NCBI GenBank assembly: GCA_019637855.1
Contig: JAHBUX010000016.1
Coordinates: 1-64,000, forward strand
Direction of reading: 5' to 3'
From: Bdellovibrionales bacterium
Lineage (GTDB): Bacteria; Bdellovibrionota; Bdellovibrionia; Bdellovibrionales; UBA1609
Length of the DNA stretch: 64,000 bases
Of this stretch, positions 200 through 17,102 are shown piece after piece. The notes under the pieces are model-generated. The model searched no databases. It was given only the letters and a program-made list of their open reading frames with translations, and was not told the DNA's origin. Both the position numbers and the translations under genes were made by a program. Each line of letters opens with the position of its first letter. Position 1 is the stretch's first letter.

Positions 200-913
200 T
201 CAGCCAGTTCTTGAATTTTTATTGCCGACAGCGACCAAAAAATGGGCGTGGCGAACATCGACATTTCCAAAACTCGCAGGGAACGGATAATAGCCTGAAC
301 CGAGTAAGCGAACGTTTCTGAAGCGAGAGACCTGCAAAAATTCCTTGAGTCCGCGATAGTTAAAAATAATCTTGTGCGTCCAACTGCTCAACTCAACATC
401 TTCATGGCGATGCAGAGCCATTGGATTTCCTATGCCCGACTGCACACGCGAGAAGTTCGTTAGTGAAAAATTCTGCCAGCCCATAACAGCCGCGAAAATA
501 TTATGCCAGCTACTGCCGTTTTCCGTGCTGATGATGACACAACCACCGGGTTTAAGTATGCGATGGATTTCGGCCATAAAAGTGTCCACATCATGCAGAT
601 GCTCGATGACCTGGTTGGCGTGAACGATGTCGAAAAAATCCGAATCGAACGGCAACGCGCCGTTAAGATCTGCCTTGACCACCTGGATGCCCTTGGACCG
701 CGCCCGCTCCATACGCTGATCGACAATCTCAATACCAAATGTATTCGCCACTCCGGCTTTCGCCGCCAAACGCAAAGTCCACTCGCCATCATCACAACCT
801 AGATCGAGAAGACGGCCGTTAGGCGCATGGGGAACCGAACTTAAAATATTCTGTGCGTTTAGACTATGAGCCTTTAAAAAGAGGCCCGTTAGATAGCCAT
901 GCAGTATTCCCAT
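200..913 (-). CDS. class I SAM-dependent methyltransferase
   Basis: A 237-residue soluble protein with a Rossmann-fold methyltransferase domain. Motif I is LLDLGCDDGEWT (about residues 35-46), the acidic residue ending strand 2 is in FGIEIVD, and the post-motif is FDIVHANQVIEHLHD, typical of the Methyltransf_11/UbiE-like group. The C-terminal part (GGCVIISTENGSSWHN) fits the substrate lid of small-molecule or sugar methyltransferases. It points away from the sugar operon starting at 1078 and is separated from it by a promoter-like region. Involvement in O-methylation of a surface glycan is inferred from position only; the substrate is unknown. Confidence 0.75.
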   Translation of the reverse strand: MGILHGYLTGLFLKAHSLNAQNILSSVPHAPNGRLLDLGCDDGEWTLRLAAKAGVANTFGIEIVDQRMERARSKGIQVVKADLNGALPFDSDFFDIVHANQVIEHLHDVDTFMAEIHRILKPGGCVIISTENGSSWHNIFAAVMGWQNFSLTNFSRVQSGIGNPMALHRHEDVELSSWTHKIIFNYRGLKEFLQVSRFRNVRLLGSGYYPFPASFGNVDVRHAHFLVAVGNKNSRTG

Positions 914-1008
914 AGCTAAGACCTTTTACCCCGGCCGTAAACTATGCAAGTCCAGAAGCCCCCAGTCCAAAGTTGAGGAAGTTTTCTCGAAAGCTTTAAC
1001 GCCATGGC

Positions 1009-1037
1009 TTGTTGAGCCCTTAAGTGCGCTGTAGAAT
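1009..1037 (+). promoter_or_regulatory. possible sigma70-type promoter of the colitose-type operon
   Basis: TTGTTG (1009-1014) and TAGAAT (1032-1037) are separated by 17 bases, 40 bases upstream of the ATG at 1078. The -10 matches the consensus at five of six positions; the -35 is weak. It lies in the divergent gap between the methyltransferase and the ColD-like gene. Seen by eye only. Confidence 0.35.
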
Positions 1038-1077
1038 TAGATGGTTACCGCCTGCACATCAGCTATGAAAGACATCT

Positions 1078-2262
1078 ATGCGCAAGATTCCGTTGAACGA
1101 GTGCACTTTCGGAGAAGATGAGATCCAAGCGGCGATCGCCGTGTTGCGATCCGGGCATCTCACCATGGGTTCGCAGTGCGAAGCCTTTGAGAATCGCTTC
1201 GCCCGCGAACTAGGAGTGCGCAACGCTCTGTTTGTGAATTCGGGATCTTCGGCCAATCTTCTCGCCGCCTTTGCCCTGGTGAATCCGGCTCTTCAAGGGC
1301 ACTGCCCTCCCGGAGGTGAAGTGATTGTACCGGCGGTCACTTGGTCGACGACGATCTGGCCGATCGTACAAGCAGGTCTGACTCCCGTCCTCGTCGACAG
1401 CGATCCGCAGACTTTTCAGATGGATCTTCAGCAAGTGAAGGCGGCCATTGGGCCGAAAACTGTCGGCATTTGCCCTGTTCACGTCTTAGGGAACGCCGTT
1501 CCCATGATCGCTCTTCAAGCTCTGGCAAAGCAACATGACCTCTGGCTGATTGAAGATACCTGCGAAGCATTGGGCACGCGTCACGCCGGCAAAGACGTGG
1601 GGACCTTCGGTGATATTGGAACTTTTAGCTTTTATTTTTCACACCACATCACCACCATCGAAGGTGGCATGGTGGTCACCGACAACGATGAACTGGCAGA
1701 GCTGATGCGCTGCCTGCGTGCGCATGGCTGGACTCGGCAAATGAAGGGACGCGCGGCGATGGAGGCCAAGCACCCGGAGATCGACCCGCGCTTTCTGTTC
1801 GTGAATACGGGATTTAACTTGAGAGCGACGGAAATCAACGCGGCCTTTGGCCTTAAACAGATTGAGAAACTGCGCACGTTCAACAAAACACGCATTCGCA
1901 ATGCCGAGTTTTGGAACAAAGAATTCGCGACTTTGATTCAAACGGGTTATTTCCGACCGATGCAGCCTACCGAGGGCACTGAATCTACTTGGTTTGGCTA
2001 TCCGATCATTTGCAAGGACATCGAACTCCGCAAACAGCTGGGCGCGCACCTGGAGAAAAACGGTATAGAAACTCGTCCCGTGATCTGCGGGAACTTGGCC
2101 CGCCAACCGGCCTTCAAGATGATTCCCCATCGTATCGTAGGCGCACTCAAGGGCGCCGATGAGATTATGGACTGCGGATTGTTCTGGGGTTCGCACCCAG
2201 TGATGAACGAGAACGACCTCAGTTACGTCGCCAACACGGTAAAGGGTTTTTTCAAAGCATGA
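1078..2262 (+). CDS. colD: GDP-4-keto-6-deoxy-D-mannose 3-dehydratase (ColD-like)
   Basis: 394 residues of the DegT/DnrJ/EryC1/StrS PLP-fold family. Instead of the Schiff-base lysine of aminotransferases the motif reads SFYFSHHITTIEGG, with His189 at the lysine position. This is the signature of ColD/E1-type 3-dehydratases, which use PMP and glutamate to remove the C3 hydroxyl. Other ColD-like features are GEVIVPAVTWSTT, LIEDTCEALG, RAHGWTR and GIETRPVICGN, and the length is close to E. coli ColD (about 388). The Cys set of the iron-sulfur E1 enzymes was not seen. The gene overlaps the ColC-like gene by 4 bases and Gmd follows, exactly the enzymes needed for GDP-L-colitose. The substrate is inferred from family and neighbours. 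Confidence 0.85.
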   Translation: MRKIPLNECTFGEDEIQAAIAVLRSGHLTMGSQCEAFENRFARELGVRNALFVNSGSSANLLAAFALVNPALQGHCPPGGEVIVPAVTWSTTIWPIVQAGLTPVLVDSDPQTFQMDLQQVKAAIGPKTVGICPVHVLGNAVPMIALQALAKQHDLWLIEDTCEALGTRHAGKDVGTFGDIGTFSFYFSHHITTIEGGMVVTDNDELAELMRCLRAHGWTRQMKGRAAMEAKHPEIDPRFLFVNTGFNLRATEINAAFGLKQIEKLRTFNKTRIRNAEFWNKEFATLIQTGYFRPMQPTEGTESTWFGYPIICKDIELRKQLGAHLEKNGIETRPVICGNLARQPAFKMIPHRIVGALKGADEIMDCGLFWGSHPVMNENDLSYVANTVKGFFKA

Positions 2263-3200
2263 TGAAGCGTGAAGACGTCATTCTGGTGACCGGATCCGAC
2301 GGCATGGTCGGTCACGCGCTAGTTCACCATCTGCGCGGGAATTTCACCCATGTAGTGGCACTGACGCGCAAGGATTGCGATCTCGAAGATCGCGAAGCCA
2401 CGCGAAAATGTTTTCAATCGCATCAACCTAAGTTTGTTTTTCATCTCGCCGCCAAAGTCGGCGGTATCAAGGCCAACATTTCGGATCCGGTTGGTTTTCT
2501 GCAAGCCAATGCCTTGATCAGCTGCCATGTATTGGAAGCGGCCTACAAGGTAGGCGCACATAAGACTCTCGTTCTTGGTAGCTCCTGTATCTATCCGCGC
2601 GAATGTCCACAGCCCATGCGTGAAGAGTACATAATGACCGGCCCGCTTGAGCCCACCAATGAGGGTTATGCCCTGGGCAAAATTCTCGGACTGCGTCTGG
2701 CCCAATACTATCATCAGCAGCACGGCATGAACGTGGTCTGCCCTGTTCCGAGCAATATCTACGGTCCCGGCGACACCTATGATCTAGAACGCAGCCACGT
2801 GCTTAGCGCGTTGGTACGCCGTTTTGTGGATGCGCGCGAGGAGGGTCGCAACAGTGTCACTCTATGGGGAAGCGGCAAGGCGCGCCGCGAGTTTGTCCAT
2901 GTGGAAGACGTGGTGCGGGGAATGCTTTTTTGCATGCAGCAGCTCAACACTCCGGAGATCCACAATCTAGGGCCGGGCACCGACTGCAGCGTCGCGGAGC
3001 TCGCCGAAAAGATCAAAGCACTCACCGGCTACAAGGGCCGCATCGATTGGGACACCAGCAAAGCGGACGGAATGCCACGCAAGTGCATGGACGTCAGCCG
3101 CTTAAAGGCACTTGGTTTCACAACGCAAGTGTCCTTGGAAAACGGAATTCGGGAAGTGGTGAAGGAATACGAAACGATCTACACGCGGGAACACAAATGA
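2259..3200 (+). CDS. colC: GDP-L-colitose synthase / GDP-L-fucose synthase-like SDR epimerase-reductase
   Basis: 313 residues, extended SDR fold. The NAD(P) glycine motif is VTGSDGMVG near residue 10. The catalytic SSCIYP and YALGK (Tyr-x-x-x-Lys) are present, and the acid/base Cys and His of GDP-fucose synthase are kept in SSCIYP and [12 protein letters not shown]-fucose synthase and ColC share this fold and chemistry (epimerisation then 4-keto reduction). Because the preceding gene is a ColD-type 3-dehydratase, ColC (GDP-L-colitose) is the more economical reading; GDP-fucose synthase (fcl/wcaG) is the alternative. It overlaps the neighbours on both sides by 4 bases (ATGA), so translation is probably coupled. 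Confidence 0.78.
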
Positions 3201-4204
3201 AGAAGGCGTTGATTACCGGTATCACCGGCCAAGATGGCTCGTACCTGGCGGAGCTGCTGCTCGAAAAAGGTTATCAAGTTCACGGAATTATTCGGCGCTC
3301 ATCGTCCTTCAACACCGGTCGCATTATGCATATCTTCCAAGAGGTGCAAGAGAGCGACTCACGCTTGGTTTTGCACTATGGAGATCTTTCCGACGCCAGC
3401 TCGCTGGAGAAATTGATCGATGTGATCCAGCCCGATGAGATCTATAACCTGGGCGCCCAGTCGCATGTGCGCGTCAGCTTTGATCAACCGATCTACACTA
3501 TGGACATCGTGGGCAATGGCACACTTCGCCTACTGGAAGCGGTCAAAAACACCGGCGCTTACAAGACGACACGCTTGTACCAAGCATCGAGCTCTGAAAT
3601 GTATGGCCGCGTGCACGAAGTTCCGCAAAAAGAGACCACTCCGTTTTATCCACGCAGTCCCTACGCCTGCGCTAAAGTCTTCGCCTTTCACCAATCGGTG
3701 AACTATCGCGAAGCTTACGACATGTATGTGTGCAACGGCATCCTGTTCAACCACGAAAGCCCCCGCCGCGGTGAAACGTTCGTCACTCGTAAAATCACAC
3801 GCGGGTTGGCACGCATTCTGGCCGGCTTCGACAAAAAGATTTATTTGGGCAATCTCGATGCTAAACGTGACTGGGGTTTCGCCAAAGACTATGTTGAAGC
3901 CATGTGGTTGATGCTGCAGCAAAAAGAAGCCGAAGACTTCGTTATCGCCACCGGAGAAACCCACTCGGTGCGGGACTTCTTGAATCTGGCGTTCAAATGT
4001 GTGGGTAAGAGCTGGGAAGAGCATGTGGAAATCGATCCTCGCTACCTGCGCCCCACCGAAGTCGACCTGCTTTTGGGCGACGCCAGCAAAGCGCACCAAA
4101 AACTGGGATGGAAACCGAAGACCTCGTTTAAAGATCTCGTGCAGATCATGGTGCACGCGGATTTGGACTCTTACGGCATGAGCCGACATTTTGTGGGACT
4201 TTGA
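3197..4204 (+). CDS. gmd: GDP-mannose 4,6-dehydratase
   Basis: 335 residues. The frame is open further upstream, but the family N-terminus ([17 protein letters not shown]) begins at the ATG overlapping the colC stop, so that start was chosen. Motifs are the NADP-binding [19 protein letters not shown], the catalytic SSSEMYG and YACAK, and [16 protein letters not shown], all diagnostic of Gmd. The enzyme converts GDP-D-mannose to GDP-4-keto-6-deoxymannose, the common precursor of GDP-fucose, perosamine and colitose. No GDP-mannose pyrophosphorylase (manC/colA) is in the window, so precursor supply must come from elsewhere. Confidence 0.95.
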
Positions 4205-4207
4205 TCC

Positions 4208-4906
4208 GTGAAGATCACCTTATGCATTCTTTGCCGCAATGAGCTTGAGTGCCTGAAGCTGATGCTGCCACGTTTGCCACAACCTGGCCCGCGCTCCGGC
4301 TATGATGCTTGGGTCGCGATCGATGGCGGATCGACCGACGGGAGCGTCGAGTTTTTGCAAAGCCACGGCATTCCGGTCGTCGCGCAAAGCCGGCGAGGGC
4401 GAGGCGATGCGTTTTTGCAGGCCTTCGATAAAATTGACAGCGACGCTTATATTTTCTTTTCGCCCGATGGCAATGAAGACCCGGATGACTTCACTCGCTT
4501 TCGCCTGGAACTGACCAAGGGCGCCGATCTTGTCATCGCCTCGCGCATGATGAAAGGCGCGGTGAATGAAGAAGACATTCATTGGATACGCCTGCGAAAA
4601 TGGGCCAACAACGCGTTTAATCTTCTAGCTAATCTCCTGTTCCGCCGCGCCGGCCCCTACATTACAGATTCCATCAACGGATATCGCGCCATCACTCGCG
4701 CCGCCGCCCGCCGGCTGAACCTGGATTCTCTCGACTATACGATCGAGTATCAGATGACGATTCGTGCGCTGAAGGCGCGGCTGAATATCGCAGAGTTCCC
4801 GACTCACGAGGGGCAACGTTTGGCGGGCGACACAGGCGCGCAATCTATTCCCACGGGCATTCGCTTTCTAAAAAAACTTTGGCGCGAGTTCAGAATAGGA
4901 CGATAG
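4208..4906 (+). CDS. family 2 glycosyltransferase
   Basis: 232 residues, GTG start three bases after the gmd stop. A GT-A fold is indicated by LCILCRNE at the N-terminus, IDGGSTDGS, and an acidic metal/sugar-nucleotide site in FFSPDGNEDPDD. There are no C-terminal transmembrane helices, unlike dolichol-phosphate-mannose synthases with membrane tails. It probably transfers a sugar made by this locus, or builds the glycan that receives it; donor and acceptor cannot be told from the sequence. It is co-directional with gmd and the flippase-like gene that follows. Confidence 0.8.
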   Translation: MKITLCILCRNELECLKLMLPRLPQPGPRSGYDAWVAIDGGSTDGSVEFLQSHGIPVVAQSRRGRGDAFLQAFDKIDSDAYIFFSPDGNEDPDDFTRFRLELTKGADLVIASRMMKGAVNEEDIHWIRLRKWANNAFNLLANLLFRRAGPYITDSINGYRAITRAAARRLNLDSLDYTIEYQMTIRALKARLNIAEFPTHEGQRLAGDTGAQSIPTGIRFLKKLWREFRIGR

Positions 4907-4909
4907 ACG

Positions 4910-6046
4910 ATGAGCTCAGCGAAATGGCGCGAGGGAGGGATTTTCGTTGCAGGGAACCTGCTCGCCGGTCTGCTGAACTATCTGTATCAAGTTGTCGCCG
5001 CTCGCCAGCTTAGGCCCGAAGATTTTGCCGATCTCAACGCGTGGCTGGCCCATATTGCTTTGTTTTCCGTCAGCGCCGGACTTTTGCAGTATGCCGCCAA
5101 CTTCTTTCCTTCACGGCAAAATCTCTTACGTGGGACCATCATTGCCTTCAACTTTATCGCTCTGCTCTTTATTGGCCGCTGGTTCACGCTCTCCGGTCTA
5201 ACGCTAGAGAGGGCGATTATGATCGTCACCTTGGCTTCGATGGCCGGCTGGCTGCTAGGCCAAGCCCAGATCCGCCTGGCCTTTATCGCCATGACTGTGG
5301 CTAATATCGTACTCGGTCTGGCGAAGCTGACATCGGCATTCTTTCCGATCTACGAAGGTGGGAGTCTTGAACGCTTTGCCTTCTCACTCCTATTTGGCTA
5401 TGTGCCGGCTCTATGGGCGCTCACTTATCTGCTATGGTGGCGCGGCTCCCCTGAGCGTCCCGTAAAATCCTCATGGACCGCGCCGGTGATCTTGTCTCTG
5501 ACTTCGGTGATGATCCCGCAGTTCGATATGATCGTCATGAATCACACACAAAACCCGGCAACGTTCGAAAGCTTCGTCAAAGCCAGCTTGTTTTATAAAA
5601 GCATCTACTTCTGGGTGTACATCGGTGCACAATGGCTTTTGCCCCACCAGATTCAAGGCGGCGCCAAGTCCACGCTGCGCGGCCTGCTACTCACCTTTCT
5701 TTTGGCCCTGATCGGTTGCGCCGGGTTAACGGCTCTGAGTCCCTTTATCTCCACCGCCCTATTGAAATGGAGCGAGCCCCCCGCACTACGGCTAGTGTTT
5801 CTCTCTTGCCTACATATGAGCCTGCTCACCATGCTGTTTTTATGGATACAGGAAATGTGCGCCCATCGACGCCCCCAAGTGGCGGCGCTTGTATTGGCCG
5901 TTCTTGCCATTGAAGCCGCAAGCCAATGGATCCTCCGCTTTCCAGCCACAAACTATCTGATTCTTGTAACCGTTCTACAAACTTGCCTGCTAGGAACTGC
6001 CTACGTCCTCAGCGGTCATTTGCGCCCAAAACGGGGTGGCATTTAA
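4910..6046 (+). CDS. multi-spanning membrane protein, Wzx/flippase-like
   Basis: 378 residues with about ten hydrophobic segments. The N-terminal stretch (GGIFVAGNLLAGLLNYLYQVVAARQL) and the following DFADLNAW resemble the first helices of polysaccharide flippases of the MOP superfamily, where small residues and an R-L-x-x-x-x-F pattern are common. It is shorter than typical Wzx proteins (about 400-480), so a truncated or divergent flippase is possible. The position at the end of the sugar operon, three bases after the glycosyltransferase, supports a role in moving a lipid-linked glycan across the inner membrane. Family assignment is moderate. Confidence 0.55.
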   Translation: MSSAKWREGGIFVAGNLLAGLLNYLYQVVAARQLRPEDFADLNAWLAHIALFSVSAGLLQYAANFFPSRQNLLRGTIIAFNFIALLFIGRWFTLSGLTLERAIMIVTLASMAGWLLGQAQIRLAFIAMTVANIVLGLAKLTSAFFPIYEGGSLERFAFSLLFGYVPALWALTYLLWWRGSPERPVKSSWTAPVILSLTSVMIPQFDMIVMNHTQNPATFESFVKASLFYKSIYFWVYIGAQWLLPHQIQGGAKSTLRGLLLTFLLALIGCAGLTALSPFISTALLKWSEPPALRLVFLSCLHMSLLTMLFLWIQEMCAHRRPQVAALVLAVLAIEAASQWILRFPATNYLILVTVLQTCLLGTAYVLSGHLRPKRGGI

Positions 6047-6071
6047 CGCCCGGATATAGTTATATCTAGGG

Positions 6072-6932
6072 GTGGATAAGTCCTTCGAAGGCCTCTTATT
6101 CAGTCTCGCCATTCACGCCTTGTTGGTGGTGGCATTCTTTAATATGCCGTCCAAACCCTTTTTTGCCGATGGCGATCGCACCGAGATCACGCTGATCGAA
6201 AAGCCCCAATCCAAGGCCAAAGCTTTCGTTACTGAAACCGAAAAACAAAAACCGCCCGAATTGGTCGACGTTAAAGATGCGGCGGACTATCTGTCGGAAT
6301 TCACTAAGCGGGTAAAAAAACAGATTGTGGCGCGTAACAGCGGCCCCACCCGCAATTCACAACCAACCGTAATTCCACTGCGGCCGAAAGAGGTCCACGA
6401 TCGCGGCCGGGTGGCCGGCATGGACACCCAGCCACGCGCGCGCCGTGAGGAAGGCGTCGGCCTGCCCACCGTGGGCGGCAACCAATCCATGCGCGAGGTC
6501 GCCATCGGACCGTCGAGCGTGGCGGAGTTTATTCCAGGAGTGGAGCAAGGTGAATTCACGGCGCTGAACACGGATCAATTCACCTACTACTCGTTCTTTG
6601 CGCGCATCAATGAGCAAATTCGCAATCGTTGGGTGACCGGCATTCGCAACTATATGGCCCAGCTCTCGACCAAGGATCACGAGATGCTCTCAAAGATCGA
6701 TCGACAAACGGTGGTCGAGATCATCCTAACTCCCAATGGGGAGTTCTCTTCTTCGGTGCTGGAACATTCTTCTGGCGATCGTGTTTTGGACCAGACAACG
6801 GTCGATGCCTTTCGAGCAGCGGCTCCTTTTCTAAATCCACCGCGCGGCATAGTCGAGTCCGACGGTTTTATTCATTTGCGCTATGGCTTTGTGGTGCGCT
6901 TTCGCCCGCCTTTAGGTCAGGCCGGTTTCTAG
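6072..6932 (+). CDS. TonB-family energy-transducer-like protein
   Basis: 286 residues, GTG start. One N-terminal transmembrane helix (LLFSLAIHALLVVAFFNM) is followed by a charged Lys/Pro-containing linker and a C-terminal TonB_C-type domain from about residue 170. The latter shows INEQIRNRW, VVEIILTPNGEF and DQTTVDAFRAAAPFLNPP, the usual end of TonB/AgmX-type domains. Such proteins couple the inner-membrane motive force to an outer-membrane partner. No ExbB/ExbD genes are nearby. The next gene encodes a small outer-membrane beta-barrel, so the two may act together, but this is only positional inference. Confidence 0.7.
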   Translation: MDKSFEGLLFSLAIHALLVVAFFNMPSKPFFADGDRTEITLIEKPQSKAKAFVTETEKQKPPELVDVKDAADYLSEFTKRVKKQIVARNSGPTRNSQPTVIPLRPKEVHDRGRVAGMDTQPRARREEGVGLPTVGGNQSMREVAIGPSSVAEFIPGVEQGEFTALNTDQFTYYSFFARINEQIRNRWVTGIRNYMAQLSTKDHEMLSKIDRQTVVEIILTPNGEFSSSVLEHSSGDRVLDQTTVDAFRAAAPFLNPPRGIVESDGFIHLRYGFVVRFRPPLGQAGF

Positions 6933-6977: not shown

Positions 6978-7541
6978 ATGCGAGTGATTCTTTTCAGTGT
7001 TCTGCTGTTTAGCAGCATGCCTGCCTTCGCGGGCTTTATCGAGCTCGGCGCTTCGGCCAACTACCGCTCTAGCGGCTACAACGAGTTCAATAAAATCGAG
7101 AGTCTGACTTACACCGCTTCGTTCTCTTACTACTTTTTTGAAACCTGCGCGCTCGAGTTCAACTACACCACTGGATATTCCAAGCAGCTAACGAAGGGGC
7201 CTGGTGAACTCGATGATCAAGACAAAGTGGAAGACAACATCGACATGGCTTCAACCGACCTGGTGTTGTCGTTTGCCGGCCGTCAGGATCCCTTTCGTCC
7301 ATATATCAAAGCCGGCGCTGGCTATTTGATCAAAGAGCGCTTCCGGCAGATCAACAATGGTGATAAAAATCGTCTCTATAAGCAGGAAGGCATTGTGCCT
7401 AGCGGAGGCGTCGGTCTATCGATCAATCTCACCAAAGAACTGAGTGTGAAAATCGGCATCGAAGCATGGACGTCGCCACTGAAACAAAAACCGGTGGTAG
7501 TCGACTACGCGGGACGCGCCGGCATCGCTTGGATCTTCTAA
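6978..7541 (+). CDS. small outer-membrane beta-barrel protein
   Basis: 187 residues with a clear signal peptide (MRVILFSVLLFSSMPAFA, cleavage after AFA). The mature part has alternating aromatic/hydrophobic strands (YTASFSYYFFETCALEFNYTTGYS; PYIKAGAGYLI; GGVGLSINLTKELSVKIGIEAW) and ends in IAWIF, a C-terminal Phe typical of BAM substrates. The size fits an eight-stranded OmpA/OmpW-type barrel. The following lipoprotein gene starts inside or directly after its 3-prime end. Confidence 0.7.
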   Translation: MRVILFSVLLFSSMPAFAGFIELGASANYRSSGYNEFNKIESLTYTASFSYYFFETCALEFNYTTGYSKQLTKGPGELDDQDKVEDNIDMASTDLVLSFAGRQDPFRPYIKAGAGYLIKERFRQINNGDKNRLYKQEGIVPSGGVGLSINLTKELSVKIGIEAWTSPLKQKPVVVDYAGRAGIAWIF

Positions 7542-8605
7542 AAAGTTTGAGTCTTATCGCGCTCCTGTGGACGTGCACCGGTTGTCAGATCGGGTACTAC
7601 ATGCACAGCGCCTATCACCAATCCAAACTTGCCAACAGCCGCCGGCCGATTCCCGAAGTTCTTAAGACAGACAAACTGACGGCGGAGCAAAAGAAGAAGC
7701 TCGAACTGGTGGAAGAGGTAAAGACCTTTGGTGAAACTCAATTAGGTTTGGCGAAATCAAAGAACTACACCAGTTTTGTGCAGCTGGAAGAACCTTACGT
7801 CACATATATTGTACAGGCAGCCAAGGTCTACGAGCTGAAACCGTATCTTTGGCATTTCCCCTTTGTGGGCGATGTGCCTTATAAAGGCTATTTCCGCAAG
7901 GCACTGGCCGAAGAAGAGGCCGCCGCCTTTGACAAAGAGAAATACGACACCTATGTACGCGGAGTGTCCGCCTACTCCACACTGGGTTGGTTTCAAGATT
8001 CTGTTTTAAGCAGCATGCTGCGCTACACGGATATAGATCTGGTCGAGACGATTTTGCACGAGACCATTCACACCACCTTGTACATCAAGAGTGCCGCGGA
8101 TTTTAATGAGCGCCTCGCCACCTTCATGGGTCACGAAGGCATGAAGCTATTTTACCTACAAAAAGAAGGGCTGAGCTCACCCCACCTCAAAGAGGCCGAA
8201 AACGACAGCGCCGATCAGAAACTGTTTTCGGCCTTTATCACCAAAGAGTTAGACGATTTAAAAAAGTGGTACGAAATGAACGCCGGGCAAGTGGGCCGCG
8301 AGAAAAAAGCGGCGCGCCTGAAAGAGATCCAAGATCGCTTTAGCAAAGATCTTAAACCTAATCTGAAGGGGCGCAACTACGCTGACTTTGACAAACGCGA
8401 GTTGAACAACGCCTTGCTGTTGGCCTACAAAACTTATGAGTTCAGCCTGGCCGATTTTGAGAAAGTTTATGAACACTTTGGCCGCGATTTCAGGAAAACG
8501 TTGGAATGGATGAAAGGCCTTGAGAAGGAAAAAAATCCTGAACAAGCCTTGAAGGATTTTGCAGCTCAGGTTAGCTCGCCCTCTCCTGCGCCGCAAACGC
8601 GCTAA
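7529..8605 (+). CDS. putative zinc aminopeptidase lipoprotein (PF10023-like)
   Basis: About 358 residues from a TTG start at 7529 (a second TTG at 7547 is possible). An ATG 21 codons further upstream would add a hydrophilic extension before the signal sequence. The N-terminus LLKSLSLIALLWTCTGC looks like a lipoprotein signal ending in a Cys. The core HETIHTTLYIKSAADFNE carries an HExxH zinc motif with a downstream FNE, typical of the putative aminopeptidase family PF10023. It begins inside the 3-prime end of the beta-barrel gene and ends four bases into the convergent gene. It probably acts in the periplasm; its substrate is unknown. Confidence 0.65.
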   Translation: MDLLKSLSLIALLWTCTGCQIGYYMHSAYHQSKLANSRRPIPEVLKTDKLTAEQKKKLELVEEVKTFGETQLGLAKSKNYTSFVQLEEPYVTYIVQAAKVYELKPYLWHFPFVGDVPYKGYFRKALAEEEAAAFDKEKYDTYVRGVSAYSTLGWFQDSVLSSMLRYTDIDLVETILHETIHTTLYIKSAADFNERLATFMGHEGMKLFYLQKEGLSSPHLKEAENDSADQKLFSAFITKELDDLKKWYEMNAGQVGREKKAARLKEIQDRFSKDLKPNLKGRNYADFDKRELNNALLLAYKTYEFSLADFEKVYEHFGRDFRKTLEWMKGLEKEKNPEQALKDFAAQVSSPSPAPQTR

Positions 8606-9774: not shown

Positions 9775-11589
9775 GTGAGCGACGCATGGGACGATTTAGA
9801 AGTGAAACTACGAGCCACTTTGTTCATCGTGATCAGTTTGGTTTTAGCCTACGCCTATCTCTACCCTGGCAGCCAAGCCTGGTTAGAAAGACGCACCGAT
9901 ATCGTGATGAGCGACGGTACCGATATCACTGCCGTTCCTTATTCATGGGATCTGCTCAAGCGCGAGTGGGAACAACATCCTTCGCATTGGCTCTATGGCA
10001 CCGTGTGGGCCGACGCCGGCGACCCCGAACGTGGCAACCCGATGTGGATTGCTTGGTCAGAACGCCTAATAAGCCTACCTTCTCTGTATATAAACTCGGT
10101 CGAGCAGTCTTCAGCGTCTATCGCCATCGCTCTTATTCTTCTAAATGTACTAACGATGTATGGCTTGGGGCGCATTCTAAAATGGCCACCTTGGATTGCG
10201 TTTGCATTGGCATTGGCCTGGGGGTTTTGCGCCTACACGCGGGCACGCGCTCAAGTGCACCCCAGCCTGGCGGGTACCTATCATATTCCCCTCCTTTTCA
10301 TCGGCCTGCTGCTGACCGTGCGGGGAGTGAGTTGGCGCTCGACCGCGGCCGCAACCCTCGCTTTCCTTGCAGCCGCGATGGCGCCTCACTATTATGTCGT
10401 GACCGCCGTTTTTCTTACCCCTGCGCTTCTCATATACGTGTATCTGCAACCCGAGTTCTCAAAAGAATGGCGACGTATCCTGGTGCGCCTATGTGCCGCA
10501 ACTCTTCCCGCAATTCTATTCTTGGCTTTTAATCTGCGCTTTACGATTCCGTCCGATGCAAAGCTCTCTGCAACGATGGCTCTACCCGCGACCGGTGAGA
10601 CCGCAACTGGAGAGCTACATCCCTTCTTGAGCATCTATGCCGCGCGCCCGATTGACTTTTTCACGTCGGATTTAGGGCTAGCCGGAGGCCTGCGCGACCC
10701 CAATCCGCTGAAGACGGTTCTCAACGAAGCCGTTGTCGAAGATCTTACCAAGGACGGTCGCAACGGAAATGCGCACGAACGCACGAATGGGATTAGATGG
10801 CTCATCTGGCTATTGGCGGCAGCGGCGCTAGTCACCACCGTTCGAAAACCCCGCGGCGAGAATCGAACGCAGATTTGGTTCTTTGCAGGCCTTGCCGCAT
10901 TTACGTTTTGTCTATCTCTTTCACCTGAAGCGCTCGGCTACGGTCCTTCGGCATGGCTATACAAGTTGGTGTCGCAGATTCGGGTCTCTGCACGCGCCGG
11001 TACGTGGGTCCACTTCTGTCTACTAATGATCACGGGAATCTGGCTTTCCTCATCTCTCGCGGGTGAAAGACTACGGCGGTGGGCCGCCCTTCCCGCCCTG
11101 TTGGCTGTGATGGTTGTGCTTGAATATCCGCCGCTTTGGCAAACTGTTCGCATGGCGGAGATCGCGCCCCCTTACGCAACTCTGGCGCGCGACAAAGGCG
11201 CGTGCGGTACGGGTATGTATTTCCCGTTGGTCAGCAATCACATGGGTTCAATTGTTTACTATCGCTTCTTACAACGCACCCGCGGATCGGACTGCCATAT
11301 GTTAAACAGCTTTGCCGATCTCAAACGACTTTCCTATATTACCAATCTCTTTCCACCCACCGGCGAGTATTTGGCGAATCTAGCAGGCGATATGATCACC
11401 CCTATACGCTTGCAAAAGTTAGCGCAATGCGTGCCGTTGAGCTTTGTGGCGTTTGATCCCGCAGTACCTATTCACCTGGTGAGTGACTACTGTAAGAACT
11501 TGGGATGGTTGCTGACGGAAGATCGCCTCTGCGTCTCTCCGCAAAAGGGTGTTCCTCTGGCCAAATTTCCAGATCAGTGTGAAATCTAG
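9775..11589 (+). CDS. large multi-spanning membrane protein, GT-C glycosyltransferase-like
   Basis: 604 residues from a GTG start. About ten to twelve hydrophobic helices fill residues 15-460, followed by a soluble C-terminal domain with several Cys. A long, acidic first extracytoplasmic loop (roughly residues 35-95, with DGTDITAVPYSWD and WADAGDPERGN) precedes helix 2, the layout of GT-C enzymes that use polyprenyl-phosphate sugars and keep catalytic Asp/Glu in that loop. No exact family was recognised. It ends against the convergent formyltransferase gene (4-base overlap). With the ArnD-like gene beyond, an ArnT-like transferase role is possible but unproven. Confidence 0.5.
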   Translation: MSDAWDDLEVKLRATLFIVISLVLAYAYLYPGSQAWLERRTDIVMSDGTDITAVPYSWDLLKREWEQHPSHWLYGTVWADAGDPERGNPMWIAWSERLISLPSLYINSVEQSSASIAIALILLNVLTMYGLGRILKWPPWIAFALALAWGFCAYTRARAQVHPSLAGTYHIPLLFIGLLLTVRGVSWRSTAAATLAFLAAAMAPHYYVVTAVFLTPALLIYVYLQPEFSKEWRRILVRLCAATLPAILFLAFNLRFTIPSDAKLSATMALPATGETATGELHPFLSIYAARPIDFFTSDLGLAGGLRDPNPLKTVLNEAVVEDLTKDGRNGNAHERTNGIRWLIWLLAAAALVTTVRKPRGENRTQIWFFAGLAAFTFCLSLSPEALGYGPSAWLYKLVSQIRVSARAGTWVHFCLLMITGIWLSSSLAGERLRRWAALPALLAVMVVLEYPPLWQTVRMAEIAPPYATLARDKGACGTGMYFPLVSNHMGSIVYYRFLQRTRGSDCHMLNSFADLKRLSYITNLFPPTGEYLANLAGDMITPIRLQKLAQCVPLSFVAFDPAVPIHLVSDYCKNLGWLLTEDRLCVSPQKGVPLAKFPDQCEI

Positions 11590-12353
11590 CGTAAGCGAGG
11601 ACGTCCCCGAAAGGCCCCCCAGAGCTCGACTAAGCCTGGAGTCGGCCAGCTCTGCGCCAGCGAAGCGGACTGAGACTTACGACTCATCTGTCCCGACTGA
11701 AAAAGTCGAACCACGCGAATTGCCAACTCCGCGTTTAAACGGATGTTGGCAATAATCGCCGAGGCTACAGATACGGCCTCACGCGCAGGAATGGACTGCT
11801 GCAAAACAATATCGCCGTTGTCGACACCGGCAGTGACCACCAAAACGGAACTGCCAACGCGCTCGGTCTCACCGTTACGAAGGGCCCAGAATTCGCTATG
11901 CACATTTTGATAATGCGGAACTATTCCTCCATGCAGGTTTAAGAAGAGGGGGGCCATGAGGAGTGTTTTTTTGCTGAGGATTGCCGTTCCGTAAACAAGA
12001 ACCAAATCGGGCTTCCAACGTTGTAGAGCCGACCGAGCAATGGAGTCGTTGGCGTCCTCACAAGTGATCGATTCAACTTCGTGGGACAGAGAGACATGAC
12101 GGAAAGGTGCATCGGCCGCACTCGACACAATTCGACTGATTAACAGTGCCGCGGCCACGTCCATCACTCGCCACGGCCAGAGCCATAGCGGCGAGTGCGT
12201 GAAGTAGCGTTTTAGTTTCCGGCAACGGGCCGACCCTCCCCGCTCCCATATGAATTTTACATCAAAGTGCTGCGCCAACTCGGCAGCTATATAGCGCCCA
12301 GCCACGCCATCACGAGCGAGGAAAACTAAGCTTAGGCGGCTTTCGTTCGACAT
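11586..12353 (-). CDS. formyltransferase family protein (Fmt/ArnA N-terminal-like)
   Basis: 255 residues from the ATG at 12353; a start 14 codons further upstream would overlap the deacetylase gene more deeply. The formyl-transfer triad of the family is visible: Asn139 and His141 in LNLHGGIVPHYQN, and Asp178 in GVDNGDIV. A Rossmann-like start (LSLVFLARDGVAGRYIA) binds 10-formyl-tetrahydrofolate in relatives. The protein is shorter than Fmt (about 310) and lacks a clear C-terminal tRNA-binding domain, so a sugar-amine formyltransferase like the ArnA N-terminal domain is more likely. It overlaps the ArnD-like gene by 22 bases. Confidence 0.75.
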   Translation of the reverse strand: MSNESRLSLVFLARDGVAGRYIAAELAQHFDVKFIWERGGSARCRKLKRYFTHSPLWLWPWRVMDVAAALLISRIVSSAADAPFRHVSLSHEVESITCEDANDSIARSALQRWKPDLVLVYGTAILSKKTLLMAPLFLNLHGGIVPHYQNVHSEFWALRNGETERVGSSVLVVTAGVDNGDIVLQQSIPAREAVSVASAIIANIRLNAELAIRVVRLFQSGQMSRKSQSASLAQSWPTPGLVELWGAFRGRPRLR

Positions 12354-13195
12354 AACTCTGCCACCTCTGCCAAAGTCACAATTCGATAGCCGCACTCGCG
12401 CACGTGCCTCAATACCGCTTCAAGAGTGTCGATTTCACGCAACCCCGCATAATAGGGGTGATCATAAACAACGGCATAACCCGGTGAACGCTGCAAACGT
12501 TGCTCAAAGTCGGCCAACACTTGAGACGTTGTTTTCCCCAAAGCGCGCTGATGCTCGAAATAGGCGACGCCTCCCGGCTCACCGGTCATATTCGTACCCA
12601 CATTGATCAGCCCACCTTCGCGTTGCCCCCAGATAGCCTCGCTACCGTGACGATCGGCACGGTAGCGAAAACCTTGCCGTTCTAAAACGCGAGGCAGATC
12701 TGGGTGTTCAGCCCAACCCGGAGCCGAAAAGCCTGCAGGCTGCACGCCCATACGCCTCAACCAGCTGAGTGACCATTCAATCTCATTTTCCAGCTTCTGC
12801 ACTGACCAGGTCGATACGCCGTGATGCCAGAGATCATGATTGCGACCGCCGTGTAAACCCAACTCCTGAGATTTTGCCAAGCGCTCGACGATCTTGGGAT
12901 ACGACGGACCGATGTTTGGATTTATAAGAGCGGTGTAAAGATAATCACGTAGGCCAAGCTTGGCGCGGGCCGAAAGAGCGACTACCCGTTCTTCGTGCGG
13001 TGAGGGAAAACGCGCTCCACTTAGCTTGTTTTTTACAAAATTGCCGAGAGACACGCTACGACCGACATTCAAAAAAAACGTGAATTGCATGCCGAGTCGT
13101 TCAGCCAAATCGATCAAAGGAGGCACACCCTCACTAAGGCATTTTGGCGTATCGATATCAAAGCGTAGTGCGAAGATCTTAGATGCGGCCATCAC
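12332..13195 (-). CDS. ArnD-like polysaccharide deacetylase / deformylase
   Basis: 287 residues of the NodB/CE4 fold. RFDIDT at the N-terminus matches the catalytic-base/metal Asp segment RIDVDT of ArnD. ELGLHGGRNHDLW provides the metal-binding His pair, FSAPGWAEHP corresponds to the ArnD AAAGWRAD segment, FRYRADRHG to its LRYNSDCRG, and AVVYDHPY to its C-terminal His motif. ArnD removes the formyl group from undecaprenyl-phosphate-Ara4FN in the periplasm. No signal peptide is evident, which differs from secreted CE4 enzymes but fits ArnD. The adjacent overlapping formyltransferase supports a formylate-then-deformylate route. Substrate sugar unknown. Confidence 0.72.
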   Translation of the reverse strand: MMAASKIFALRFDIDTPKCLSEGVPPLIDLAERLGMQFTFFLNVGRSVSLGNFVKNKLSGARFPSPHEERVVALSARAKLGLRDYLYTALINPNIGPSYPKIVERLAKSQELGLHGGRNHDLWHHGVSTWSVQKLENEIEWSLSWLRRMGVQPAGFSAPGWAEHPDLPRVLERQGFRYRADRHGSEAIWGQREGGLINVGTNMTGEPGGVAYFEHQRALGKTTSQVLADFEQRLQRSPGYAVVYDHPYYAGLREIDTLEAVLRHVRECGYRIVTLAEVAELCRTKAA

Positions 13196-13201
13196 CTATG
13201 A

Positions 13202-13756
13202 TTATAGACGCCCCTCCGCAGGGAAGTGTAGACCGGGGTTGATAAACTGGCGGTCGCCTTTGCGAGCGATGGCGCGCACGCGCTGAGTCTGTTGGCGATA
13301 GGATTCACGCAGGCGATTTAAGCTCTCTTCTTCCTTTTGGAACTCGCGGAAGAGGCGTGGGAAATCCTTGTCCGCCGGAGCGAGGTCCATATCCATTTGC
13401 GTGATAAGGCTTACAGCGAGGGAGGAAAGGTCCATTTGACGGCGCAAGTAAACACGCAGATCATCCATATCCGATACGTCGGGTTTGGTGACCTCATCAA
13501 AAACTTGCATCATATCGGCGGAAACTTCCAAGCCGTTTTTACGGGCGTGCACCACTAAGGCACGCACGGTGTTCATACGTAGGTCGTAGGCAAACACGAG
13601 CTCCTGAACATAGCGATCCGCGCGCACCGTGGACTCGACCAGAGTACGGATGCGCATGCTCTCGACGATCTTTTCTCGATAAAAGCCGCAGAAGAAAAGT
13701 GTGATACTTAAAATGGCTAAAGCTTTGCGCGGATGATTCTTAACGATAGACATCAT
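13202..13756 (-). CDS. membrane-anchored helical protein, weakly LemA-like
   Basis: 184 residues. One N-terminal hydrophobic segment (ALAILSITLFFCGFY) is followed by an almost entirely helical, charged region. The order of a single anchor, a helix starting around residue 35 (TLVESTVRADRYVQELV), a middle NTVRALVVHARKNGLEV and a C-terminal coiled segment recalls LemA proteins, but the conserved LemA motifs are not obvious. It ends 6 bases upstream of the ArnD-like gene on the same strand, so it may be the first gene of that unit. Function unknown. Confidence 0.5.
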   Translation of the reverse strand: MMSIVKNHPRKALAILSITLFFCGFYREKIVESMRIRTLVESTVRADRYVQELVFAYDLRMNTVRALVVHARKNGLEVSADMMQVFDEVTKPDVSDMDDLRVYLRRQMDLSSLAVSLITQMDMDLAPADKDFPRLFREFQKEEESLNRLRESYRQQTQRVRAIARKGDRQFINPGLHFPAEGRL

Positions 13757-13927: not shown

Positions 13928-14884
13928 TTAGCCGGCCACCGAAACGCGGTTACGACCGCTGTTTTTTGAATGAAATAGAGCTTTGTCCGCGCGCTCATAG
14001 ATGAATTCCCATGCTGGATCACCTTGGGCCTTGAACGCGATTCCCACCGAAATTGTCGTAGGAATAGACTGCCCTTCAAATTGAAACTCATGACCTTCGA
14101 TAGTCGCGCGAATCCGCTCGGCGATTTCTTCCGCTTGGCGCGGAGGCGAGCCGAGGAGTAGCAAAGCAAACTCCTCGCCACCGAATCGGGCGAAGAAGTC
14201 GTTGCCACGGATCAGTTTGCCACTGATGACTTTGGCGATCTCTTTCAACACGTAGTCACCGGCCAAGTGGCCGTAAGTGTCGTTGATCGATTTGAAACGG
14301 TCGATATCGAAAATCATAAACGTGAACGGCACGCCTAAAAGCTCGGAACGCTTGAACAGCTCCGGTGCTTTGCTTTGCAAAGCACCGCGGTTGGCGATGC
14401 CCGTCAGAGCATCCGTCTGAGCACGGTCAAAGGTGGCGGCCGAAGCCACTGTTTCGATAGAGCCACGTTCGAGGAATTTGAAAATGATATTTCCAACTTT
14501 GATCTGATCGTTGTTGTGCAGCTTATGTGGCACCAAGGCCTGGATCTGACGGCCGTTCACGACAGTCTTGTTAGTCGACTCAAGGTCGATCAACGAGACA
14601 TCTCCGCCAGCCATCACCAGCTTGGCGTGAAATTTACTGACACTTTTATCATCAACGAAAATATGCGCCGTCGGCGCGCGGCCGATGATGCGATCCGTGT
14701 CCTCGATCGGCCATTGACGCCCGACGCTTGCGACGGGTCCCACCAACATAACAATCGACGGCGGAGCCTGCCCGGCTTGGGCTAAGCGCAGCTTGAAAGT
14801 GTCGCTCTGAAGAATACTGGTTTTGTCGGTGAGATCGCGAGGATCGTTATCATCACCGCCGTTTTTATCATCTGCATCTGACAT
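13928..14884 (-). CDS. FHA-GGDEF diguanylate cyclase
   Basis: 318 residues. An FHA domain occupies about residues 50-140 (GRAPTAHIFVDDKSVSKFHAKL, with the phosphothreonine-binding Arg, Ser and His). A GGDEF domain spans 150-315, with the active site GGEEF and an allosteric RGND (RxxD) five residues before it. It should therefore make c-di-GMP from two GTP, with product inhibition and control through binding of a phosphothreonine partner. The architecture is that of Bdellovibrio DgcB, an FHA-GGDEF protein linked to predation. It follows the phosphoesterase gene across a 99-base palindrome. No start upstream of 14884 is needed. Confidence 0.9.
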   Translation of the reverse strand: MSDADDKNGGDDNDPRDLTDKTSILQSDTFKLRLAQAGQAPPSIVMLVGPVASVGRQWPIEDTDRIIGRAPTAHIFVDDKSVSKFHAKLVMAGGDVSLIDLESTNKTVVNGRQIQALVPHKLHNNDQIKVGNIIFKFLERGSIETVASAATFDRAQTDALTGIANRGALQSKAPELFKRSELLGVPFTFMIFDIDRFKSINDTYGHLAGDYVLKEIAKVISGKLIRGNDFFARFGGEEFALLLLGSPPRQAEEIAERIRATIEGHEFQFEGQSIPTTISVGIAFKAQGDPAWEFIYERADKALFHSKNSGRNRVSVAG

Positions 14885-16130: not shown

Positions 16131-17102
16131 TTAAGAGGCCACGAACACGATGTTGCGGCTTTTGCGTTTCCCGTAATACATAGCCTGGTCGGCGATTTGA
16201 ATCAAACCCGGAGCTGTCTGAGCATGCTGCGGGTACGAGGCAAGACCAATACTGACTGTCAGATTTAAGTTATGTCCCTCGACCGTAAAGGTCTTCTGTT
16301 CAACCGCCTTGCGAATGCGCTCGGCCACCTTCTGAGAGTCTTCGGGATTCGCACTGCCAAGCAACACGATGAACTCATCACCGCCGTAACGGAAGCAATA
16401 GTCACAACCACGCACTTGACCCTTGAGCACTTTGCCCAACTCCACCAGCAGGCGCGAGCCCACCCAGTGTCCACGACCGTCGTTCACCATTTTGAAATAG
16501 TCGATATCGAGGAAAAGAAGCGTGAAAGGCACGCCATCGCGCTTGGCCCGGTTGATTTCGTGCTCGAGCACGATGGGCAGATAGCGTTGATTGTAGAGAC
16601 CTGTCAACTCATCCAAATAGGTTTCATTGCGAGCATTCAGATGTTGATAGGCGAAGTGCAGATACTTGCTGGCTAAGTCCATGCCCGGCTTGAATTGGGA
16701 AGTCAGTTGCACCGGGTTGACCTCTTTGGGTTTATCCAACACCACAACACCCAAAAACTTCTCTTCAAAGAAAACGGGATAGACAAAACGCGGAGCCGGC
16801 TGCGTCAGCATATGGGCCGGCATCTTCTTGCGCCACGGTTGCGGAAAGAGATCGTTCACTTGTCGCCACAATTGAAACACCGAGAACGAATCGGATGCCG
16901 GTTGGCTCCACATATGCTGCCCGATCACGTCGGCCGCCGCAAACGCGTGCTGCCAGTTGGCCTCGGAGGCTTCATGCACGCGCATCAACCCGTAGGCCGA
17001 AATCCAATGCACAGCCGTGCATTTGGTCTGCGCTTGGCAGTAGCCCATCACCTTGGTCAAAACATCGTCTAAGGCCAGTGAGGTGAAATCTTCGTGCTTC
17101 AC
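16131..17102 (-). CDS. GGDEF diguanylate cyclase with N-terminal GAF-like sensor
   Basis: 323 residues. The first 150 residues look like a GAF-type sensor (alternating helix and strand, FVYPVFFEEKFLGVVVLDKP); this assignment is weak. The GGDEF domain starts near DELTGLYNQRYL and contains the active-site RYGGDEF with an RGCD (RxxD) inhibitory site five residues before. It should be a catalytically competent, product-inhibited cyclase. The start overlaps the coiled-coil gene stop by 4 bases (ATGA), so the two are translationally coupled. Confidence 0.88.
   Translation of the reverse strand: MKHEDFTSLALDDVLTKVMGYCQAQTKCTAVHWISAYGLMRVHEASEANWQHAFAAADVIGQHMWSQPASDSFSVFQLWRQVNDLFPQPWRKKMPAHMLTQPAPRFVYPVFFEEKFLGVVVLDKPKEVNPVQLTSQFKPGMDLASKYLHFAYQHLNARNETYLDELTGLYNQRYLPIVLEHEINRAKRDGVPFTLLFLDIDYFKMVNDGRGHWVGSRLLVELGKVLKGQVRGCDYCFRYGGDEFIVLLGSANPEDSQKVAERIRKAVEQKTFTVEGHNLNLTVSIGLASYPQHAQTAPGLIQIADQAMYYGKRKSRNIVFVAS

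Follow-up and report, generated by a model that had tools for sequence, protein, structure and literature searches.

An overlapping ArnD-like deacylase and sugar N-formyltransferase-like gene pair in a Bdellovibrionales genome, and its probable role in acetyl-to-formyl exchange on a surface amino sugar

Introduction

Why should a gene for an enzyme that removes an N-acyl group overlap a gene for an enzyme that adds a formyl group? The question is raised by a stretch of 64,000 nucleotides from a Bdellovibrionales bacterium (contig JAHBUX010000016.1, positions 1 to 64,000; hereafter the window), in which an ArnD-like NodB-fold N-deacylase and a sugar N-formyltransferase-like protein are encoded by overlapping genes that face a large membrane protein gene. 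A first-pass annotation had taken the three genes together as an uncharacterised route to a formyl-protected amino sugar, on the model of the 4-amino-4-deoxy-L-arabinose (L-Ara4N) pathway. N-formyl sugars occur sporadically in O-antigens, capsules and archaeal glycans. In the making of O-antigens, sugar N-formyltransferases such as WbtJ, VioF, FdtF and WbkC transfer formyl to the amino group of a nucleotide sugar, an amine supplied in these cases by an aminotransferase dependent on pyridoxal phosphate (PLP). To our knowledge, the sugar formyltransferases that have been characterised use amines of aminotransferase origin. In the window and in the related loci described below, unlike in the WbtJ, VioF, FdtF and WbkC cases, a deacetylase gene adjoins that of the formyltransferase. 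We consider it probable, though far from certain, that the two enzymes form an N-acyl exchange module for an amino sugar of a surface glycan, swapping acetyl for formyl.

Results

Two overlapping genes encode a deacylase and a non-housekeeping formyltransferase

The three genes delineated in the first-pass annotation are all present as open reading frames, at 9775-11589 (+), 11586-12395 (-) and 12332-13195 (-). The second of these likely begins at ATG 12353, which is preceded by a Shine-Dalgarno-like AGAGGTGG, with a longer form starting from GTG 12395, and the resulting overlap with the deacylase gene, which comes first, is 22 base pairs (bp; 12332-12353). G+C content is even across the region, at 51-56%.

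Table 1 Coordinates of the gene pair and of the neighbouring features discussed in the text.
Feature	Coordinates	Strand	Start or boundary	Position or context
ArnD-like NodB-fold N-deacylase, 287 amino acids (aa)	12332..13195	-	GTG 13195 start, or ATG 13192	First of pair
Sugar N-formyltransferase-like protein, 255 aa	11586..12353	-	ATG 12353 start	Second of pair
184-aa protein	13202..13756	-	Ends 6 bp before deacylase	Possible first gene of the pair's transcription unit
Large polytopic membrane protein, GT-C-like by D47/D50 in first loop	9775..11589	+		Convergent neighbour of pair
Flippase-like membrane protein	4910..6046	+		Context; its relatives travel with those of the 9775-11589 protein
ColD-like dehydratase, GDP-fucose-synthase-like reductase and Gmd	1078..4204	+		Context; nearby surface sugar genes

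The formyltransferase belongs to PF00551 (46.4 bits against a gathering cut-off of 26.1) and keeps the N-x-H...D catalytic residues as Asn139, His141 and Asp178, numbered from the ATG start; the triad and the overlap with an ArnD-like gene were thus both as first described. The genome holds three PF00551 genes, the other two being of PurN and Fmt size and located elsewhere, so the housekeeping formyltransferase functions are covered by separate genes. Weak matches of the window protein to the fmt and PurN models might suggest a second tRNA-fMet or purine enzyme whose overlap with the deacylase gene is accidental, but its scores fall far under the NCBIfam cut-offs (35.5 of 201.5 bits for fmt and 38.1 of 150.1 bits for PurN) and a maximum-likelihood tree places it in none of the Fmt, PurN and ArnA clades, each supported at 100/99. 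With the genome's own Fmt and PurN genes elsewhere, we regard this explanation as highly improbable, and the window protein is most likely, judging from its sequence, a formyltransferase of the non-housekeeping, sugar N-formyltransferase-like type.

The deacylase belongs to PF01522 (NodB or CE4-like fold; 26.8 bits against a gathering cut-off of 23.1), with a borderline match to DUF2334, and keeps D13 and D15 of the D-x-D motif, the two metal histidines H115 and H120, and the C-terminal H246. Lacking a hydrophobic segment, it is probably cytosolic. Its best named match is ArnD: the sequence of the ArnD crystal structure 8t0j matches it at 9.8e-12, and the NCBIfam equivalog model NF011923 at 48.3 bits (8e-13) against a curated cut-off of 382. 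An ArnD from an arn-like locus of the same phylum (G118) scores 247 bits on this model, likewise below the cut-off but about five times the score of the window protein, whose metal motif is H-x4-H where ArnD has H-x3-H and which lacks the C-terminal extension of ArnD. The AlphaFold model of the deacylase, built from two sequences, was too poor for fold searches (predicted local distance difference test, pLDDT, 56).

The deacylase is rare. Among 369 phylum genomes a single relative was found, with 40% identity and a PF01522 score of 24.1 bits, in Bdellovibrionales bacterium RIFOXYD1_FULL_53_11 (G354), which was also the sole genome recovered in two scans of genome contigs; an acetyltransferase-like gene adjoins the relative there. 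No relatives were found on viral contigs, a tblastn search of plasmids and phages returned only ArnD proteins or distant ArnD-like stretches, and a PF01522 search of the window's own genome gave no match at the search threshold and hence no sign of a further NodB protein of this kind.

Deacetylase genes recur beside formyltransferase genes

We surveyed 50 regions from genomes of the phylum, each surrounding a relative of the formyltransferase and picked mostly by protein length, so that the counts are not those of an unbiased sample. Six surveyed formyltransferase genes overlap a NodB gene on the same strand (L083, L085, L086, L092, L101 and L114), by exactly 4 bp in four of them; the NodB identity rests on Pfam in five of the six and in the fusion described next, and for L114 on its similarity to L092 together with a match in the genome search with PF01522. 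At L089:4007-5614 (G211) both domains lie in a single chain of 535 aa, PF00551 at its N-terminal side (107-206) and the NodB domain PF01522 at its C-terminal side (332-457). Because the 14 genomes tested hold only 0-9 PF01522 genes each, chance adjacency to a given gene would be well under 1%. A PIG-L gene, a de-N-acetylase by its Pfam name, adjoins the formyltransferase gene in a further locus of the phylum (L112). PIG-L proteins are de-N-acetylases of N-acetylglucosamine (GlcNAc) derivatives.

The arrangement extends beyond the phylum. On three plasmids of Roseobacteraceae (Antarctobacter and two Leisingera strains) a PIG-L gene is followed by a formyltransferase gene with a 4-bp overlap, and on a plasmid of Haloarcula halobia a NodB gene takes the place of PIG-L, again with a 4-bp overlap. 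A Halorussus cluster has formyltransferase and PIG-L genes around neuB and neuC, and the gene row of L083 reads formyltransferase, NodB, neuB, neuC, neuA (neuB identified by search, neuC and neuA read from the sequences), nonulosonic acid genes being present in two clusters. At the other loci, the partner NodB proteins are similar to the de-N-acetylases PdaB, PgdA, PgaB, IcaB or HfsH and not to ArnD; formyltransferases on the ArnA/Fmt side of the tree often adjoin ArnB-like aminotransferases instead. On the tree, formyltransferases paired with a deacetylase group together more than chance would give (4 changes of this label where 10.8 were expected; none of 500 shuffles was as low), and well-supported branches force at least 3 changes. 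Several lineages have thus gained or retained the pairing, and the deacetylases involved have unrelated folds.

Three further observations were made in the survey. At L085 (G357; 414-6526) the formyltransferase-NodB pair adjoins a 1213-aa protein whose start resembles a carrier or synthetase, as in nonribosomal peptide synthetases (NRPS-like), and such modules may have a role in secondary metabolism as well. Many phylum genomes (L094-L099, L111, L113, L124, L126, L129 and similar loci) carry another, conserved formyltransferase, about 246 aa long, which, where its neighbours were seen, is encoded ahead of an 800-aa protein whose start is hydrolase-like and of a gene resembling phosphoenolpyruvate (PEP) synthase. 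At L115:4207-6036 (G349) a 609-aa protein joins the N- and C-terminal formyltransferase domains to an enoyl-CoA hydratase domain.

The proposed acetyl-to-formyl exchange and its alternatives

Because the recurrent partners are NodB or PIG-L proteins resembling GlcNAc de-N-acetylases, acetyl removal followed by formyl addition fits the pairs better than formylation followed by deformylation. In the proposed exchange, the NodB-fold enzyme would act in the cytosol on a 2-acetamido sugar linked to a nucleotide or polyprenyl and hydrolyze its N-acetyl group, and the formyltransferase encoded by the overlapping gene would then formylate the freed amine from 10-formyl-tetrahydrofolate, giving an N-formyl sugar. 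From these comparisons we infer the type of substrate, which of the two steps comes first and the identity of the acyl group removed, which we take to be acetyl and not formyl.

A chemical precedent is offered by the nonulosonic acids, whose C5 nitrogen derives from C2 of GlcNAc and is acetylated at the start, so a 5-N-formyl nonulosonic acid requires both deacetylation and formylation. One such compound, 5-N-formyl-legionaminic acid, is established as a component of glycans, and its pathway in Halorubrum sp. PV6 includes a putative formyltransferase in the cluster (PMC6137143). A search of the text of that paper did not return the term 'deacetyl', and no mention of a deacetylase was found in it. 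The Halorubrum pathway resembles the chemistry proposed for the window in placing an N-formyl group on a nitrogen that starts acetylated; unlike it, the genome of the window has no clear NeuB, and the pair would accordingly, by analogy, apply the same chemistry to a different sugar.

The principal alternative is protection in the manner of the arn pathway, in which a nucleotide amino sugar is formylated, used by a polyprenyl-phosphate glycosyltransferase and then, as a lipid-linked sugar, deformylated by the ArnD-like enzyme. The window pair shares with ArnA (in its N-terminal domain) the formyltransferase fold and the Asn/His/Asp triad, and with ArnD the NodB fold, the D-x-D motif, the two metal histidines and the C-terminal histidine; the arnA and arnD genes of Escherichia coli also overlap. 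The deacylase is moreover nearest to ArnD by both sequence and profile. In the window, however, the deacylase gene comes first, whereas arnA precedes arnD in the arn operon; the formyltransferase lacks the dehydrogenase half of ArnA, and the deacylase departs from ArnD in its H-x4-H motif, its missing C-terminal extension and a score one fifth of that of the phylum ArnD. No arn operon was seen in the window genome in searches with E. coli ArnT and with ArnC and ArnB, in keeping with the first-pass annotation, which had recognised no arnB, arnC or arnT. ArnT gave no match, in a search that had no positive control, so that this empty result shows little; relatives of ArnC reach at most 26% identity and are ordinary GT2 enzymes, and the best relative of ArnB (40% identity) lies in a PglC-like sugar-transferase cluster rather than in an arn operon. 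Arn-like loci with ArnD are present in other members of the phylum (G118 and G266). By these searches the deacylase is not encoded, as an ArnD would be, with arnA, arnB, arnC and arnT, and similar formyltransferases elsewhere have partners of de-N-acetylase type. Protection of this kind appears to us unlikely, although deformylation keeps some weight since the window deacylase is closest to ArnD.

The single relative of the deacylase bears on another possibility. Lipid-linked N-acetylhexosamine (HexNAc) deacetylases of the NaxD/FlmF2 type are ArnD-related NodB enzymes that act on an N-acetyl sugar, and we know of no formyltransferase partner of NaxD. An enzyme of this kind would deacetylate a polyprenyl-phosphate HexNAc before its transfer to lipid A, the formyltransferase would modify another sugar, and the overlap would reflect co-regulation only. 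Consistent with this, the G354 relative lies in a heptose-type polysaccharide cluster, where no formyltransferase adjoins it, and a GT-C-like protein is encoded near the window pair; the overlap and the recurrent pairing, including the fused chain, argue instead for consecutive steps, and we hold such a division of labour to be quite unlikely. We also considered that G354 might lack any sugar formyltransferase, which would have favoured deacetylation, but one is present on another contig, in a nonulosonate-type cluster.

Several observations weigh against acetyl-to-formyl exchange. ArnD, the closest named relative of the window deacylase, is a deformylase, and a profile comparison places the window protein on the ArnD side of the NodB fold with 99% probability over 265 columns. 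The G354 relative has no formyltransferase beside it. Some of the paired loci have the formyltransferase gene first, the window formyltransferase sits on a long branch of the tree with no firm placement, and the transcription unit of the pair contains no substrate-making genes.

The convergent membrane protein is a neighbour of the pair

The first-pass annotation had included the large membrane protein in the route, a role that the genomic comparison did not uphold. Its gene runs head-on to that of the formyltransferase, with a 4-bp overlap at the stop codons (11586-11589), and is thus not co-transcribed with the pair. Relatives with 38-44% identity come from five genomes, two of them species of the same genus and the other three elsewhere in the order, and the deacylase was not found in any of the five. 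Most of the relatives examined lie among genes for epimerases, GHMP kinases, nucleotidyltransferases or glycosyltransferases. A relative of the flippase-like protein is encoded on the contig in three of the five genomes; it adjoins or overlaps the membrane protein relative in G037 and G026 and shares its contig in G002. The convergent orientation, and the polysaccharide clusters of its relatives, from which the pair is absent, mark the membrane protein as a neighbour and not a partner, and the synteny comparison led us to abandon it as a candidate ArnT of the route.

The protein itself had no Pfam, PDB, profile or structure match, and its AlphaFold model, computed without homologues, was too poor for fold searches (pLDDT 41). 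D47 and D50, which follow the first hydrophobic segment in the first loop, are invariant in five sequences, as is E110, and it is from the hydrophobic segments and D47/D50 that the protein appears GT-C-like.

In one genome of the same genus (G003), the contig with the membrane protein relative (L077:1-1535) also carries a formyltransferase-like gene (PF00551, 34.5 bits) together with one for an aminotransferase of the DegT type, so N-formyl sugars may be common in the genus of the window.

Other genes of the window

The 184-aa protein that may open the transcription unit of the pair had no confident Pfam family and no relatives in 19 related genomes. Further away, the gene at 1078 has the ColD dehydratase 2gms as its best match (251 bits), and its set also comprises the reductase (GDPFucSynFcl, 352 bits) and Gmd (GDP_Man_Dehyd, 486 bits); given the ColD match, these genes look like a GDP-colitose/fucose-type set. 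The ColD-like gene had been a candidate for an aminotransferase (arnB or perosamine synthase), which was dropped given its match to 2gms and the histidine at the position of the PLP lysine. Just upstream of the pair, two GGDEF-type proteins (13928-14884 and 16131-17102), one with an FHA-like domain ahead, flank a metallophosphatase-like gene, and a 379-aa protein encoded at 7466-8605 has a HETIH zinc-peptidase-like motif and is perhaps a predicted aminopeptidase.

Discussion

What was first read from this locus holds in several respects: the formyltransferase is not a housekeeping one, groups apart from the tRNA-fMet enzymes and is coupled, among surface-glycan genes, to a NodB-fold enzyme that is ArnD-like. 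That reading was right in pointing to an uncharacterised formyl amino-sugar route and probably wrong on two counts, the involvement of the membrane protein and the purpose of the formyl group: protection sits poorly with partners that elsewhere resemble de-N-acetylases.

Acetyl-to-formyl exchange may reach beyond the window. We give roughly even chances to a general route of this kind in bacteria and archaea, assembled repeatedly from a formyltransferase and unrelated deacetylases (ArnD-like NodB, other NodB or PIG-L), which would make N-formyl sugars with no need of an aminotransferase and would account for the 5-N-formyl nonulosonic acids. If true, the recurring deacetylase-formyltransferase module would constitute a second, predictable route to N-formyl sugars, genomes could be read for the presence of such sugars, and a missing step in the formation of 5-N-formyl-legionaminic acid would be supplied.

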